DNA from: an uncultured Arthrobacter sp.
GTDB taxonomy: Bacteria > Actinomycetota > Actinomycetes > Actinomycetales > Micrococcaceae
Assembly: GCF_947495145.1 (NCBI RefSeq)
Contig: NZ_CANLXP010000005.1
Coordinates: forward strand, 117,673-181,672
Reading direction: 5' to 3'
Length of the DNA: 64,000 bases
Shown: positions 1,061 through 36,937 of the stretch, one piece after another
How positions within the stretch are numbered: position 1 is the first letter of the stretch
Layout of the letters: every line of letters begins with the position of its first letter
Notes under the pieces: model-generated
The model's database searches: none
Told to the model about the DNA's origin: nothing
The model's input: only the letters and a program-made list of their open reading frames with translations
Program-made: the position numbers and the translations under genes

Positions 1061-2380
1061 ATGACGGAACCGACTGCGCCGGACCCGGCCTACCTCAACG
1101 CCATCGCCGCCGAGACCCGGCTGCGAATGAAGACTGCCACTCCAGAAGAATCCCCGTACCGCGGAGCACCGCAGGAACTTGTCGACGCTGTGGGGCAACG
1201 CGCAAGCGCCCTGGAAGGGGACCTCGCCCACATCGTCCACACCCTGCATGCCAACCCCGAGACCGCCTATCAGGAGCACAACAGCGCCCGCGTCCTGGCG
1301 GACGTGCTCAAAAAGCACGGCATCGACGCAACTGTGGGCGTACATGGTGTCGACACGGCTATCCGCGCGGAGATCAGCGGAACTTCTCCCGGTCCAACCA
1401 TCGCCGTCCTGAGCGAATACGACGCGCTTCCGGGCATCGGCCACGCCTGCGGCCACAACGTCATCGCTGCAACGGGTGTGGGCGCGTTCCTCGCGCTGGC
1501 ATCGGTGCAGGACAGGCTTCCCGGCGAAGTGGTGTTCCTGGGAACTCCCGCCGAGGAAGGCCACTCGGGCAAGGAGGTCATGGCCCGGCACGGTGCGTTC
1601 GAGGGTGTGGACGCGGCAATCATGGTGCACCCCTATGGCTACGACCTCGCGGACCAGGCCTGGCTCGGGCGGCGTTTGCTCACCATTACCTTCACCGGCA
1701 TCGCCGCGCACGCCTCCGCCCAGCCTTTCATGGGACGCAACGCGCTCGACGCCGCCAGCCTCACCTATCAGGGCATCGGCCTCCTGCGACAGCAGCTTCC
1801 GCCGTCGGACCGGGTGCACACCAACATCGTTGAGGGCGGCCAGAGCCCCAACATCATCCCCAACCGCGCGGTGCTCAAGCTGTACGCGCGCTCACGGCTG
1901 CCGGAAACGCTCAAGGACCTGAGCGGGCGCCTCGACGACATTGCCCGTGGAGCGGCGCTGATGACCGGCACCACCGTCGCCCTGGAATGGGACGAGCACC
2001 CGCCGTCGCTGCCCATCCGGACCAACAAGGCGCTGACCGCGCGCTGGGTGAAGTCCCAGGAGGGGCGGGGACGCGCTCCGCTGCCCGCCGGCGTCGTCTC
2101 CGACACGCTGGCCGCCTCCACGGACTTCGGCAACGTGAGTTACCGGATCCCCGGAATCCACCCGCTGATCAGCATTGCTTCGGCCGACACCGCCCTGCAC
2201 ACGCGTGAGTTTGCTGCCGCAGCCAATACCGAAGCGGCGGAAAAAGGCGCGTACGACGGCGCAGCCGGCCTTGCGCTCACGGCTCTGGACTACCTCTGCG
2301 ACCCGGAGCTTCAGCGGGCGGTAACAGAAGAGTTCGCGGCCCAGGGTGGTCCGATCGACGTTCCTGCCTACTTCGACTGA
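1061..2380 (+). CDS. M20 family amidohydrolase, AbgB-like (p-aminobenzoyl-glutamate hydrolase type)
   Basis: M20 signature ACGHNVIAATGVGAFLAL, GTPAEEGHSGKEVM, HASAQPFMGRNALDA; followed by an AbgT transporter gene. Confidence 0.9.
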   Translation: MTEPTAPDPAYLNAIAAETRLRMKTATPEESPYRGAPQELVDAVGQRASALEGDLAHIVHTLHANPETAYQEHNSARVLADVLKKHGIDATVGVHGVDTAIRAEISGTSPGPTIAVLSEYDALPGIGHACGHNVIAATGVGAFLALASVQDRLPGEVVFLGTPAEEGHSGKEVMARHGAFEGVDAAIMVHPYGYDLADQAWLGRRLLTITFTGIAAHASAQPFMGRNALDAASLTYQGIGLLRQQLPPSDRVHTNIVEGGQSPNIIPNRAVLKLYARSRLPETLKDLSGRLDDIARGAALMTGTTVALEWDEHPPSLPIRTNKALTARWVKSQEGRGRAPLPAGVVSDTLAASTDFGNVSYRIPGIHPLISIASADTALHTREFAAAANTEAAEKGAYDGAAGLALTALDYLCDPELQRAVTEEFAAQGGPIDVPAYFD

Positions 2381-2425
2381 TCCTTCAGCTCTTTCCCACA
2401 ACTTTCCGGAACCCAAGGAGCACCC

Positions 2426-4036
2426 GTGTCAACAGCAACTGGCCTCTCCCGGCGCCGCCTCACCGACCGCTTCCTCAATGGCGTGGAACGCGTGGGCAAC
2501 AAGCTGCCCGAACCGTTCACGCTCTTCCTGATCCTCTTCGGAATCACCGCAGCGGTCTCTACCGCCATGGCGTGGGCGAACGTCACCGTACAGGTGCCCG
2601 GCAGCGCCGAGGTAACCCAGATCCGCGGCCTGTTCACCGCCGAAGGCCTCACTTGGCTGACCGAAAACCTGGGCCCCAACTACCTTGGCTTCCCGCCGCT
2701 GGTGACGGTGCTGCCGATCCTGCTCGCCGTCGGCGTGGCTGAGAAGTCGGGCCTGCTGGCCGCGATGATCCGCAGGGCCTTCGGGTCAGCACCGCGTTGG
2801 GCGCTGCCGTACGCCGTCGGCGTGGTGGGTGTGCTTGGCTCGATCATGTCCGACGCCGCCTTCGTGGTCATTCCACCGCTTGCCGCGCTGGTATTCAAAG
2901 CCGCGGGCCGACATCCGGTGGCGGGCCTGCTCGGCGGATTCGCCGCAGCCGGCGCCGGCTACTCAACCAATCTGCTGGTCACCAGCCTCGATGCCCTCTT
3001 TGCCGGCATTACGACGGCGGTCACCGCGACCCTGCCCAACCCCGGTTCACCGGTCACTCCGGTTTCGAACTACTTCTTCAACGTGGCATCCTCGCTGGTG
3101 CTCATGTTCATCGCCGGCTTCGTCATCGACAAAGTCCTTGAGCCACGGCTAAACCGTCAGGGCGTCCCCCGCGATGAGGTAGCCGACGACGACGCTGCCG
3201 TATCTGCCTCTGCGGGAACTTCTGCGTCTTCGGGTTCGCAGCCGGATCTGCGGGCCGAGCTCGATCCGAAGGAAACCAAAGCACTGCGCTGGGCGATGAT
3301 TGCCGGCGTCGCTCTCGCCGTCATCATCGCCGTTGCGGTGACCATTCCCGGGTCGCCCTGGCGCAACGAGGAGGGCGGCTACCTGCCGAGGTCACCGCTG
3401 CTCAGCTCCATTGTCTTCATTGTCTTCGCGATGTTCGTGGTGCCCGGCCTGGTGTACGGAAAAATCGTTGGAACCATCGCCTCCGGCAAGGACGTGCCGC
3501 GCGTCATGGGTCATGCAATCCGCGACATGGCGGGATTCCTCGTACTGGCGTTCATCCTCGGCCAGTTCATTGCGCTGTTCAACTGGTCCGGAATCGGTCA
3601 GTGGATCGCCGTTGCAGGAGCCACCGGCCTCGAGGCGATCGGCCTCACCGGCTATCCGGCGATCCTCGGTTTCATCGTGCTGGCGTCCCTGTTGAATCTC
3701 TTCATCATTTCCGGCTCCGCCATGTGGACGCTGATGGCCGCGGTTTTTGTACCCTTGTTTGTGCTGTTGGGATACGAGCCGGCCTTCATCCAGGGCGCCT
3801 TCCGCGTGGGCGACTCCGCCACGCAGGTCATCACCCCGCTCAACCCGTACATGATCGTGCTGCTGGCAATGCTGCGGAAGTACGAACCCGAAGCAGGCCT
3901 CGGGACGCTGATCGCCCGCATGCTGCCGTTCGTGATTCCGTTCTGGCTGGCCTGGGCATCGATTCTCAGCATCTTCTACTTCTTCGAGATTCCGATGGGA
4001 CCGGGCAACGGAATCTTCCTCCCGCCGGCTGAATAG
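2426..4036 (+). CDS. AbgT family transporter (p-aminobenzoyl-glutamate transporter type)
   Basis: Polytopic; LNGVERVGNKLPEPFTLFLILFGI start, SDAAFVVIPPLAALVFKAAGRHPVAGLLGGFAA, GDSATQVITPLNPYMIVLLAML are AbgT family signatures. Confidence 0.92.
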   Translation: MSTATGLSRRRLTDRFLNGVERVGNKLPEPFTLFLILFGITAAVSTAMAWANVTVQVPGSAEVTQIRGLFTAEGLTWLTENLGPNYLGFPPLVTVLPILLAVGVAEKSGLLAAMIRRAFGSAPRWALPYAVGVVGVLGSIMSDAAFVVIPPLAALVFKAAGRHPVAGLLGGFAAAGAGYSTNLLVTSLDALFAGITTAVTATLPNPGSPVTPVSNYFFNVASSLVLMFIAGFVIDKVLEPRLNRQGVPRDEVADDDAAVSASAGTSASSGSQPDLRAELDPKETKALRWAMIAGVALAVIIAVAVTIPGSPWRNEEGGYLPRSPLLSSIVFIVFAMFVVPGLVYGKIVGTIASGKDVPRVMGHAIRDMAGFLVLAFILGQFIALFNWSGIGQWIAVAGATGLEAIGLTGYPAILGFIVLASLLNLFIISGSAMWTLMAAVFVPLFVLLGYEPAFIQGAFRVGDSATQVITPLNPYMIVLLAMLRKYEPEAGLGTLIARMLPFVIPFWLAWASILSIFYFFEIPMGPGNGIFLPPAE

Positions 4037-4073
4037 CTGGAATACGCGCTACCAACGAGAGGTTGCACCGGAT

Positions 4074-5060
4074 ATGACTACTTCGGACGCCGCAAAGATC
4101 TATGCCCTGCACGAGAACCCCGAGTGGTTTCCCCCGTTCGCCCGTGCTTTCGAGCAGGAGGGGCTCGAGTTTGAGGAGTGGCTGCTGACGGACGGTGTTC
4201 TGGACCTCGACTCAACACCTCCGGAAGGCATCTTCTGGTCCAGGATCAGCGCGTCTGCGCATACCCGGGACCATGGCCTCTCAAAGGACTATACCCGTGC
4301 CGTTCTGTCCTGGCTCGAGGCCCACGGCCGCCGGACCATCAACGGTCGGCGGATCCTCGAACTGGAGATGAGTAAGGTGGACCAGCTGACCGCGCTGAAG
4401 GCAGCCGGAATCGAAACACCGCGGACCGTCGCCGCCATTGGACGGGACCACATTCTGCAGGCGGCGAAGGACTTCCCGACCCCCTTCATCACCAAGCACA
4501 ACCAGGGCGGAAAAGGCCTCGGCGTGCGCAAGTTCGAGAGCCACGAGGAGTTGGCGGAATACGTGGCATCGGCTGAGTTCGAGGAGCCGCAGGACGGCAT
4601 CACCCTGATCCAGGAGTTCATCCAGGCAGCTGAGCCGATCATCACACGCGTGGAGATAGTGGGCGGCGAGTTCATTTATGCCATCCAGGCGGACACCGCG
4701 CGCGGTGGTTTCCAGCTCTGCCCGGCGGACGCCTGCGCCATCGACCCGACAACGGGCAAGCCGATCATGCCCCCGGGGGCCACGATCGAACCCGAGGAAA
4801 ACCAGCAGCTGTTCAGCCTGCGCCGCGACTTCGATCACCCGATCATCGAGAAGTACGTGGAGTTCGCACGCCGGAACAACATCGAGGTCTGCGGGATCGA
4901 GTTCATGGAGACTGCCGACGGGCGCGTGCTCACCTACGACGTGAACACCAACACCAACTACAACGCACTGGTTGAAGCCGAAGCACCACGCTCGGCACCC
5001 GGGGCGCTCGCGAAGTACCTGGCCGCGGTGGCAGCGGACCCGGCACCGTCGTTCGTGTAG
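4074..5060 (+). CDS. RimK-like ATP-grasp ligase (alpha-L-glutamate ligase type)
   Basis: ATP-grasp features: KHNQGGKGLGVRKF, QEFIQAAEPIITRVEIVGGEFIYAIQAD, EFMETADGRVLTYDVNTNTNYN. Confidence 0.82.
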   Translation: MTTSDAAKIYALHENPEWFPPFARAFEQEGLEFEEWLLTDGVLDLDSTPPEGIFWSRISASAHTRDHGLSKDYTRAVLSWLEAHGRRTINGRRILELEMSKVDQLTALKAAGIETPRTVAAIGRDHILQAAKDFPTPFITKHNQGGKGLGVRKFESHEELAEYVASAEFEEPQDGITLIQEFIQAAEPIITRVEIVGGEFIYAIQADTARGGFQLCPADACAIDPTTGKPIMPPGATIEPEENQQLFSLRRDFDHPIIEKYVEFARRNNIEVCGIEFMETADGRVLTYDVNTNTNYNALVEAEAPRSAPGALAKYLAAVAADPAPSFV

Positions 5061-36223: not shown

Positions 36224-36460
36224 ATGGCAGCTCACTGCCAAGTGACTGGGGCCGAGCCGGGCTTCGGGCACAGCATCTCGCACTCGCACCGGCGCACCAA
36301 GCGTAGGTTCGACCCGAATATTCAGAAGAAGCGGTATTGGGTTCCGTCCCTGCGCCGCAATGTGACGTTGCAGGTTTCGGCCCGCGGCATCAAGACCATC
36401 GACGTGCGTGGTATTGACGCCGTCGTCGCCCAGATCCAGGCGCGGGGAGTGAAGCTCTAA
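36224..36460 (+). CDS. rpmB: 50S ribosomal protein L28
   Basis: [71 protein letters not shown]. Confidence 0.97.
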
Positions 36461-36627
36461 TGGCAAAGGACAAAGACGTACGTCCGATCATCAAGCTGAA
36501 GTCCACGGCCGGCACCGGGTACACCTACGTGACCCGCAAGAACCGCCGTAATGACCCGGACCGCATGGTTCTGATGAAGTATGACCCCAAGATCCGCAAG
36601 CACGTCGAATTCCGAGAGGAGCGCTAA
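36460..36627 (+). CDS. rpmG: 50S ribosomal protein L33 (cysteine-free type)
   Basis: Translated from sequence (below the ORF-track cutoff): [55 protein letters not shown]. Confidence 0.95.
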
Positions 36628-36631
36628 ACAC

Positions 36632-36937
36632 ATGGCTAAGAAGTCAAAGATTGCTCGCAACGAGCAGCGCAAGGTCATTGTTGAGCGCTACGCGGCCAAG
36701 CGCCTCGAGCTCAAGAAGACGCTTGTTGACGAGAACGCAACGGACGAGGCTCGCGAGGCTGCACGCCTCGGCCTGCAGAAGCTGCCCCGCAACGCGTCGC
36801 CGGTTCGCCTGCGCAATCGCGACCAGATTGACGGGCGCCCCCGCGGCACCCTCCAGAAGTTCGGCATCTCGCGTGTCCGCTTCCGCGATATGGCGCACCG
36901 CGGCGAGCTGCCCGGCGTAACCAAGTCCAGCTGGTAG
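36632..36937 (+). CDS. rpsN: 30S ribosomal protein S14 (zinc-ribbon-free type)
   Basis: [101 protein letters not shown]. Confidence 0.97.

Follow-up and report, generated by a model that had tools for sequence, protein, structure and literature searches.

Organization of the locus

The locus discussed here lies in a stretch of 64,000 nucleotides (the window) from the genome of an uncultured Arthrobacter sp., a soil bacterium, and comprises three genes arranged head to tail in the order hydrolase, carrier and ligase, with intergenic gaps of 45 and 37 nt. The features are as follows:

1061..2380, plus strand: metal-dependent M20 amidohydrolase of the PM20D2/HmrA type, 439 aa, assigned from Pfam/NCBIfam matches and structural relatives
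2426..4036, plus strand: AbgT-family secondary transporter, MtrF/YdaH-like, 536 aa, GTG start
4074..5060, plus strand: RimK/LysX-type ATP-grasp ligase of an uncharacterised subfamily, 328 aa
4716..4736, plus strand: invariant LCPADxC motif (ligase residues 215-221), in the variable loop at the position of the acceptor-side loop of RimK
4938..4946, plus strand: D289-V-N291, the putative Mg-binding DxN of the ligase, with invariant D and N, placed by alignment with RimK (ExN)

The earlier note had described three co-oriented, close-packed genes, and the coordinates, the strand and both gaps were reproduced exactly. A phage match was sought for the set and none was found, so a phage origin was rejected. 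In the papers found on AbgT together with RimK or ATP-grasp enzymes, the set is undescribed.

Hydrolase and carrier

The hydrolase contains Peptidase_M20 and M20_dimer domains and matches the TIGR01891 amidohydrolase family (Pfam/NCBIfam). Its best solved relatives are human PM20D2 (7yh4, E 1.6e-62) and S. aureus HmrA (3ram, E 6e-58), whereas the AbgB-type structure 3io1 is a distant relative (E 1.7e-15). The PM20D2/HmrA alignment covers residues 58-426 with the metal ligands kept, which places the protein in this type: C130, H132, E165, E166 and H190, the expected metal ligands and base, are the same in every one of 89 relatives, as is H380 in each of the 87 whose sequences reach that position. 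The AbgB-like label of the earlier note is thus rejected, the operon holds a single M20 gene rather than an AbgA-AbgB pair, and the p-aminobenzoyl-glutamate context in which the locus had been placed is likewise unsupported; what stands of that overall reading is a conserved operon in which hydrolase and ligase, of opposite chemistries, are joined by a carrier.

The carrier matches ABG_transport with E 1.7e-145, PF03806 being aligned over positions 1-500 of 502, and resembles MtrF (4r1i, E 3.5e-98). The residues equivalent to MtrF D193, S417, W420, P438, R446, D449 and P457, the functional sites of that transporter, are invariant in the 41-42 relatives that cover them, and the full-length domain together with these conserved MtrF/YdaH residues identifies the protein as an AbgT transporter. 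It is the hydrolase rather than the ligase that AbgT accompanies: M20 is present in 46 of 46 AbgT-bearing Micrococcales genomes, 19 of which are without the ligase.

ATP-grasp ligase

The third protein matches the RimK ATP-grasp domain (Pfam/NCBIfam), but its scores fall far under the curated equivalog and subfamily cut-offs (74 vs 143 bits for TIGR00768, 56 vs 276 for LysX, TIGR02144, 31 vs 350 for MptN and 19 vs 331 for RimK, PRK10446), and we therefore do not file it as RimK, LysX or MptN. Judged by these profile scores, it belongs to an uncharacterised subfamily outside all three curated families, and the placement that would have spoken against the earlier note, in a known clade with an unrelated substrate, did not materialize, as no curated clade of known substrate fits. 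In searches with an AlphaFold model (pLDDT 82.5), the best PDB folds were LysX/ArgX, RimK and DcsG, with a Foldseek E of 1e-17 to LysX and TM 0.68-0.82. The ATP/Mg residues K101, K141, E181, R192, E276, D289 and N291 are invariant in 108 relatives, with the equivalence of D289/N291 to the ExN of RimK resting on alignment with RimK; fold and residues together establish membership of the RimK/LysX-like ATP-grasp superfamily. C216 and C221 of the LCPADxC motif, a loop that is modelled with low confidence, are also invariant in the 108 relatives, including those from Pediococcus and Spirosoma, and the family as a whole is seen in Micrococcales, on Pediococcus plasmids and in Bacteroidota. A LysW-dependent LysX/ArgX pathway was rejected because a search for LysW (TIGR01206) in the Arthrobacter's own genome returned no match and the GSWGR carrier-recognition motif is missing from the ligase sequence.

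Distribution and linkage in relatives

Genes were called by codon usage, as picking the longest ORFs produced spurious genes on the minus strand in high-G+C DNA. Within the genus, 32 of 36 genomes have the ligase, 25 have M20 and 22 have AbgT, in a strictly nested pattern, and M20 and the ligase are close together in all 25 genomes that have both (within about 2 kb in 24, ~7 kb apart in one). The set is more than chance, since within the genus M20 never occurs without the ligase and always lies close to it. The genes are mostly adjacent in relatives, contrary to the rare adjacency that had been named as a possible refutation.

All three genes also occur together in Cryobacterium and Georgenia/Oceanitalea and, in another order, in Ornithinimicrobium. 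Across 297 Micrococcales, M20 is present in 43 of 49 ligase genomes vs 41 of the 248 without the ligase (Fisher p 6e-22, kinship ignored), and at the level of genera the co-occurrence gives p 6e-6, again with kinship ignored; six of the 49 ligase genomes are without M20 at the cut-off used. Direct linkage is seen in several separate lineages and in varied orders, namely M20-AbgT-ligase, ligase-M20-AbgT (L063) and M20-ligase (L106 and L130-L135), and some of the junctions are 4-nt overlaps. The two enzyme genes are unlinked in most Micrococcales genomes holding both.

Monooxygenase and acetyltransferase clusters

In other Micrococcales the M20-ligase pair stands without AbgT in operons of flavin (luciferase-like) monooxygenases. 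In six of the M20-ligase clusters (L106, L130, L131 and L133-L135) it lies amid FMN monooxygenases of the NtaA/DmoA, MsnO8 and CE1758 types, with FMN/flavin reductases also encoded in L133-L135. Four sister clusters with a related M20 (L158, L159, L163 and L186) contain a GNAT acetyltransferase instead of the ligase, in three of them directly 3' of M20. Within an 11-row clade of the hydrolase tree each member has exactly one of the two, and because ligase and GNAT members are intermixed on the tree, the swap happened at least twice. GNAT was sought in genomes G485, G608, G552, G566 and G653 and was absent, the ligase was sought in G482, G549, G672 and G323 and was not found, and two genomes, G616 and G499, possess both the ligase and a GNAT relative.

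The Arthrobacter genome itself was searched for an NtaA/DmoA monooxygenase and none was found, so that the arrangement of the scm/ytn type, in which such an enzyme is encoded with capping and decapping enzymes, does not occur there. It has five luciferase-like genes, with no comparable cluster found; the surroundings of four of the five were read and are ordinary places. The idea that this organism runs an NtaA/DmoA pathway was rejected on these grounds, and for the same reasons an oxidation step would not be part of its operon.

A proposed capping and uncapping cycle and its alternatives

We propose, with a probability of roughly 45%, that the operon attaches an N-(amino)acyl cap to a small amine, for which an amino acid is the likeliest candidate, and takes it off again. 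In the mechanism that we infer, ligase and hydrolase would act on the same bond: the ligase would spend ATP on coupling a carboxylate, probably that of an amino acid, with the amino group of the substrate, the PM20D2-type M20 would hydrolyse that amide to regenerate the free amine, and AbgT would carry the compound in its capped or acylated form through the membrane, with import to feed the hydrolase as the likeliest direction. Where the M20-ligase pair brackets flavin-dependent monooxygenases, the cap would protect the amino group for as long as an organosulfur compound, for example an S-substituted cysteine, is broken down by oxidation, and in the Arthrobacter studied here the step bracketed by capping and uncapping could be transport itself or an enzyme encoded elsewhere. 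This reading is favoured because M20 and the ligase co-occur, are linked repeatedly in different orders and recur in monooxygenase clusters, because GNAT takes the place of the ligase, and because precedents exist, among them human PM20D2, the closest solved relative of M20, in its role beside carnosine synthase; the recurrent pairing without AbgT and the GNAT replacement also strengthen the conjugation/deconjugation idea of the earlier note. Counting against it are the mostly unlinked enzyme genes, the ligase genomes without M20, the Arthrobacter genome's own want of NtaA/DmoA, the two genomes with both capping enzymes, the solitary ligases and the M20-AbgT genomes without a ligase.

A bolder version, tentative and on the unlikely side, is that in a cap-oxidise-uncap strategy the acetyltransferase has given way to an ATP-grasp ligase that needs no carrier protein, the whole aminoacyl group, paid for with ATP and removed by a PM20D2-type dipeptidase, being both protecting group and transport handle in the salvage of organosulfur compounds (cysteine adducts).

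Salvage followed by reassembly, which we judge unlikely, would have AbgT import an N-acyl amino acid or a dipeptide for M20 to split, and the ligase make another amide from one of the products (a cofactor, or a conjugate for storage or signalling), so that the two enzymes would handle different bonds. It accords with the M20-AbgT pair of the 19 genomes without a ligase and with ligases that elsewhere are solitary or near other carriers, such as a DAACS symporter on Pediococcus plasmids, amino-acid permeases in Spirosoma and an MFS protein in Promicromonospora, but it leaves the M20-ligase pairing without AbgT, 4-nt overlaps included, and the acetyltransferase in the ligase slot of the sister clusters unexplained. 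Metabolite proofreading, in which the ligase would act as an amino-acid (dipeptide) synthase whose product is useful, the PM20D2-type hydrolase would destroy wrong side products and AbgT would export the product, is improbable. PM20D2 is indeed the best solved relative of M20, human PM20D2 removes side products of carnosine synthase, an ATP-grasp enzyme, according to the title of a reference cited in PMC6920838, and within the genus it is the hydrolase that depends on the ligase and not the reverse (seven ligase-only and no M20-only genomes); outside the genus, however, M20 often lacks the ligase (41 of 84 M20 genomes in Micrococcales) and is then frequently tied to AbgT or monooxygenases, nor would proofreading predict the GNAT replacement. 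A loose catabolic neighbourhood of amino-acid and peptide-use genes without a common substrate, the ligase being unrelated in role, is of similarly low probability. In its favour, many ligase genes have no related neighbour and Arthrobacter has lost the linkage on several occasions; against it stand the co-occurrence of the genes, their nested distribution and their recurring linkage in differing orders.

If the capping cycle is true, a free aminoacyl group would be a third removable amino-group cap beside acetyl/succinyl groups and the LysW carrier protein, all served by the same M20 superfamily. It would also give a function to the ATP-grasp subfamily of Micrococcales, Pediococcus plasmids and Bacteroidota, with a link to sulfur salvage and the repair of damaged cysteine, and the recurring exchange between ligase and acetyltransferase opens the reason for capping to direct testing.

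Comparison with known systems

The abgABT system of E. coli (p-aminobenzoyl-glutamate use) likewise has an AbgT-family carrier adjoining an M20 amidohydrolase, whereas the Arthrobacter operon has a single, PM20D2/HmrA-like M20 subunit far from AbgB and an added ATP-grasp ligase. With carnosine synthase (CARNS1/ATPGD1) and PM20D2 it would share the functional pairing of an ATP-grasp amino-acid ligase with a PM20D2-type dipeptidase, but the Arthrobacter ligase is short and RimK/LysX-like, and no close kinship with CARNS1 was found. We know of no histidine-dipeptide link for this operon.

The related Micrococcales clusters resemble scm (yxe)/ytn of Bacillus subtilis, acting on S-(2-succino)cysteine and S-methylcysteine, in which a capping enzyme, an FMN monooxygenase and an M20 decapping enzyme are encoded in one cluster; S-(2-succino)cysteine breakdown proceeds by acetylation, FMN monooxygenase action and M20 deacetylation (PMC9706529, PMC12757645). 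There the acetyl cap comes from a GNAT, whereas an ATP-grasp ligase is found here, and the Arthrobacter operon has AbgT and no monooxygenase. LysX/ArgX with LysK/ArgE, of the LysW carrier pathway of lysine and arginine biosynthesis, depend on LysW and GSWGR, neither of which was found in Arthrobacter, whose M20 is of the PM20D2/HmrA type and whose unit includes a transporter. LysX/ArgX is the best structural match of the Arthrobacter ligase; as is proposed for the operon, a RimK-superfamily ATP-grasp enzyme there caps an amino group that an M20-family hydrolase uncaps; and in arginine synthesis ArgA-type acetylation and ArgX/LysX ATP-grasp capping are alternative first steps, the caps being removed by the homologous M20 deblockers ArgE/LysK (PMC10433800).

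Operon layout and components

The operon comprises three co-oriented genes, for which the coordinates, the shared + strand, and the intergenic gaps of 45 and 37 nt in the earlier note proved exact. It is preceded by a TerC-family gene ending at 520 and by a small reading frame that occupies the same place in about 15 Arthrobacter loci:

622-870, - strand: small 82-aa ORF upstream of the operon
1061-2380, + strand: M20 amidohydrolase, PM20D2/HmrA-related
2426-4036, + strand: AbgT carrier, full-length, MtrF/YdaH-related
4074-5060, + strand: ATP-grasp ligase of the RimK/LysX kind (profile matches and AlphaFold model)

On the 3′ side, a gene for a ChaB/Rho_N protein lies 83 nt past the operon and is followed by one for an iron-siderophore binding protein; no conspicuous pattern of a sigma-70 promoter or a terminator is visible at the operon, which is a weak indicator in this group. 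Elsewhere in the window, three short adjacent ORFs (36242-36937, + strand) resemble by sequence the alternative ribosomal proteins L28, L33, and S14, a combination frequently associated with zinc starvation.

The M20 protein is an amidohydrolase by TIGR01891 (E 1e-81), with the expected metal-binding residues unchanged across up to 89 relatives, and its nearest solved structures are PM20D2 (Xaa-Arg dipeptidase) and HmrA rather than AbgB, to which it had been likened. The AbgT carrier spans the full length of its family and, compared with its relatives, retains the functional residues. The ligase matches the profiles of RimK, LysX/ArgX, and GshAB-type ligases, scoring far under all curated family cut-offs, and its AlphaFold model (pLDDT 82.5) is closest in structure to LysX/ArgX, followed by RimK, PsnB, and DcsG. 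Its ATP and magnesium residues are invariant, and its distinguishing mark is an LCPADxC loop with two invariant cysteines. It is rare (6 of 397 genomes across the phylum), and its relatives adjoin amino-acid permeases in Spirosoma and a dicarboxylate/amino-acid symporter on Pediococcus plasmids. On two Pediococcus acidilactici plasmids from food isolates (loci L111 and L112), a 43% identical relative named 'alpha-L-glutamate ligase' lies 17 nt 3′ of the symporter gene; one of the two plasmids carries an IS30 transposase at this gene.

Conservation and co-occurrence

Genomes were sampled at one per species, mostly from Micrococcales, and gene presence was set by similarity cut-offs. Among 36 genomes of the genus, the distribution is strictly nested (ligase 32, M20 25, AbgT 22), and M20 and the ligase occur together in 25/25, spaced by about 7 kb in one. 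Across 297 Micrococcales genomes (ligase 49, M20 84, AbgT 46), M20 is present in 46/46 AbgT genomes, adjacent by coordinates in all but one, and in 43/49 ligase genomes (p 6e-22; genus level p 6e-6, both values ignoring kinship). AbgT is thus always, and the ligase mostly, accompanied by M20, which marks M20 as the hub. The proposed linkage of hydrolase, carrier, and ligase stands as a conserved trio in several genera, with AbgT and the ligase as two separate partners of M20. The order is M20-AbgT-ligase in Arthrobacter, Cryobacterium, and Georgenia/Oceanitalea; Ornithinimicrobium has ligase-M20-AbgT. The entire Arthrobacter-type operon with its usual neighbours also appears in a record titled Vibrio cholerae strain 35D (L054), which is probably mislabelled or contaminated.

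Monooxygenase neighbourhoods and the ligase/GNAT exchange

M20 and the ligase stay together, some with 4-nt overlaps, in families without AbgT at the locus (L106, L130-L135). Several luciferase-like FMN monooxygenases surround the pair in L106, L130, L131, and L133-L135 (NtaA/DmoA family and MsnO8, both above cut-off, and CE1758-like), with an FMN reductase in L133-L135 and a flavin reductase in L133 and L135; since loci were picked partly for ligase or M20, such neighbour counts describe a non-random sample. L121 is a comparable cluster in which the ligase occurs without M20, accompanied by MsuE and genes for oligopeptide transport. This cluster and those of two congeners (L187, L188) share the oligopeptide transporter, a KPN_01858-type monooxygenase, and two CMD-like proteins, and differ at the end, with MsuE and ligase in the one species versus a VOC-like protein and M20 in the congeners.

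Four M20 loci without ligase, three from one genus (L158, L159, L186) and one from another family (L163), hold the same monooxygenase kinds together with rhodanese or DUF1684 and MFS genes, and carry a GNAT acetyltransferase in place of the ligase, in three of them in exactly the slot 3′ of M20. They are large organosulfur-type clusters (oligopeptide ABC transporter, several luciferase-like monooxygenases, rhodanese, GNAT, M20, MFS), and we found no description of such clusters of Micrococcales. On the M20 tree (trees were quick searches), these ligase and GNAT loci group in a single clade of 11 (support 96), each with exactly one of ligase or GNAT; the two kinds are interspersed, with L106 and L163 grouping together (support 98), which requires a minimum of two swaps. 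The sister clade (26 rows, support 97), linked to AbgT, contains the M20 of the window. Genome-wide, such a GNAT was absent from five ligase-type genomes (G485, G608, G552, G566, G653) and the ligase was not found in GNAT-type genomes, whereas G616 and G499 carry both; GNAT presence calls are to be read against the breadth of that family.

Proposed mechanism and comparison with known systems

The simplest reading, drawn by analogy, is that the ligase would attach to the substrate an N-acyl cap, which is probably an amino acid, that M20 would remove this cap, and that AbgT may transport the capped or acylated compound; ligase and hydrolase would then act on one shared bond. Salvage and reassembly, in which the two enzymes act on different bonds, is possible because M20-AbgT pairs occur in 19 genomes that lack the ligase. 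Proofreading, as by PM20D2 with carnosine synthase, is a possibility as well. A loose neighbourhood is improbable in the case of M20 and the ligase, although it may apply to any single genome.

For capping and decapping, the substrate of the sister clusters might, as a guess, be an organosulfur amino acid; this is weaker still for the window, whose genome lacks an NtaA/DmoA monooxygenase and LysW. Bacillus subtilis processes cysteine adducts by N-acetylating them, cleaving them with an FMN monooxygenase, and removing the acetyl group with M20 enzymes (PMC9706529, PMC12757645). In arginine and lysine synthesis, capping is performed either by an acetyltransferase or by LysX/ArgX on LysW, with homologous M20 deblockers serving both (PMC10433800), an alternation of the same form as the ligase/GNAT swap described here.
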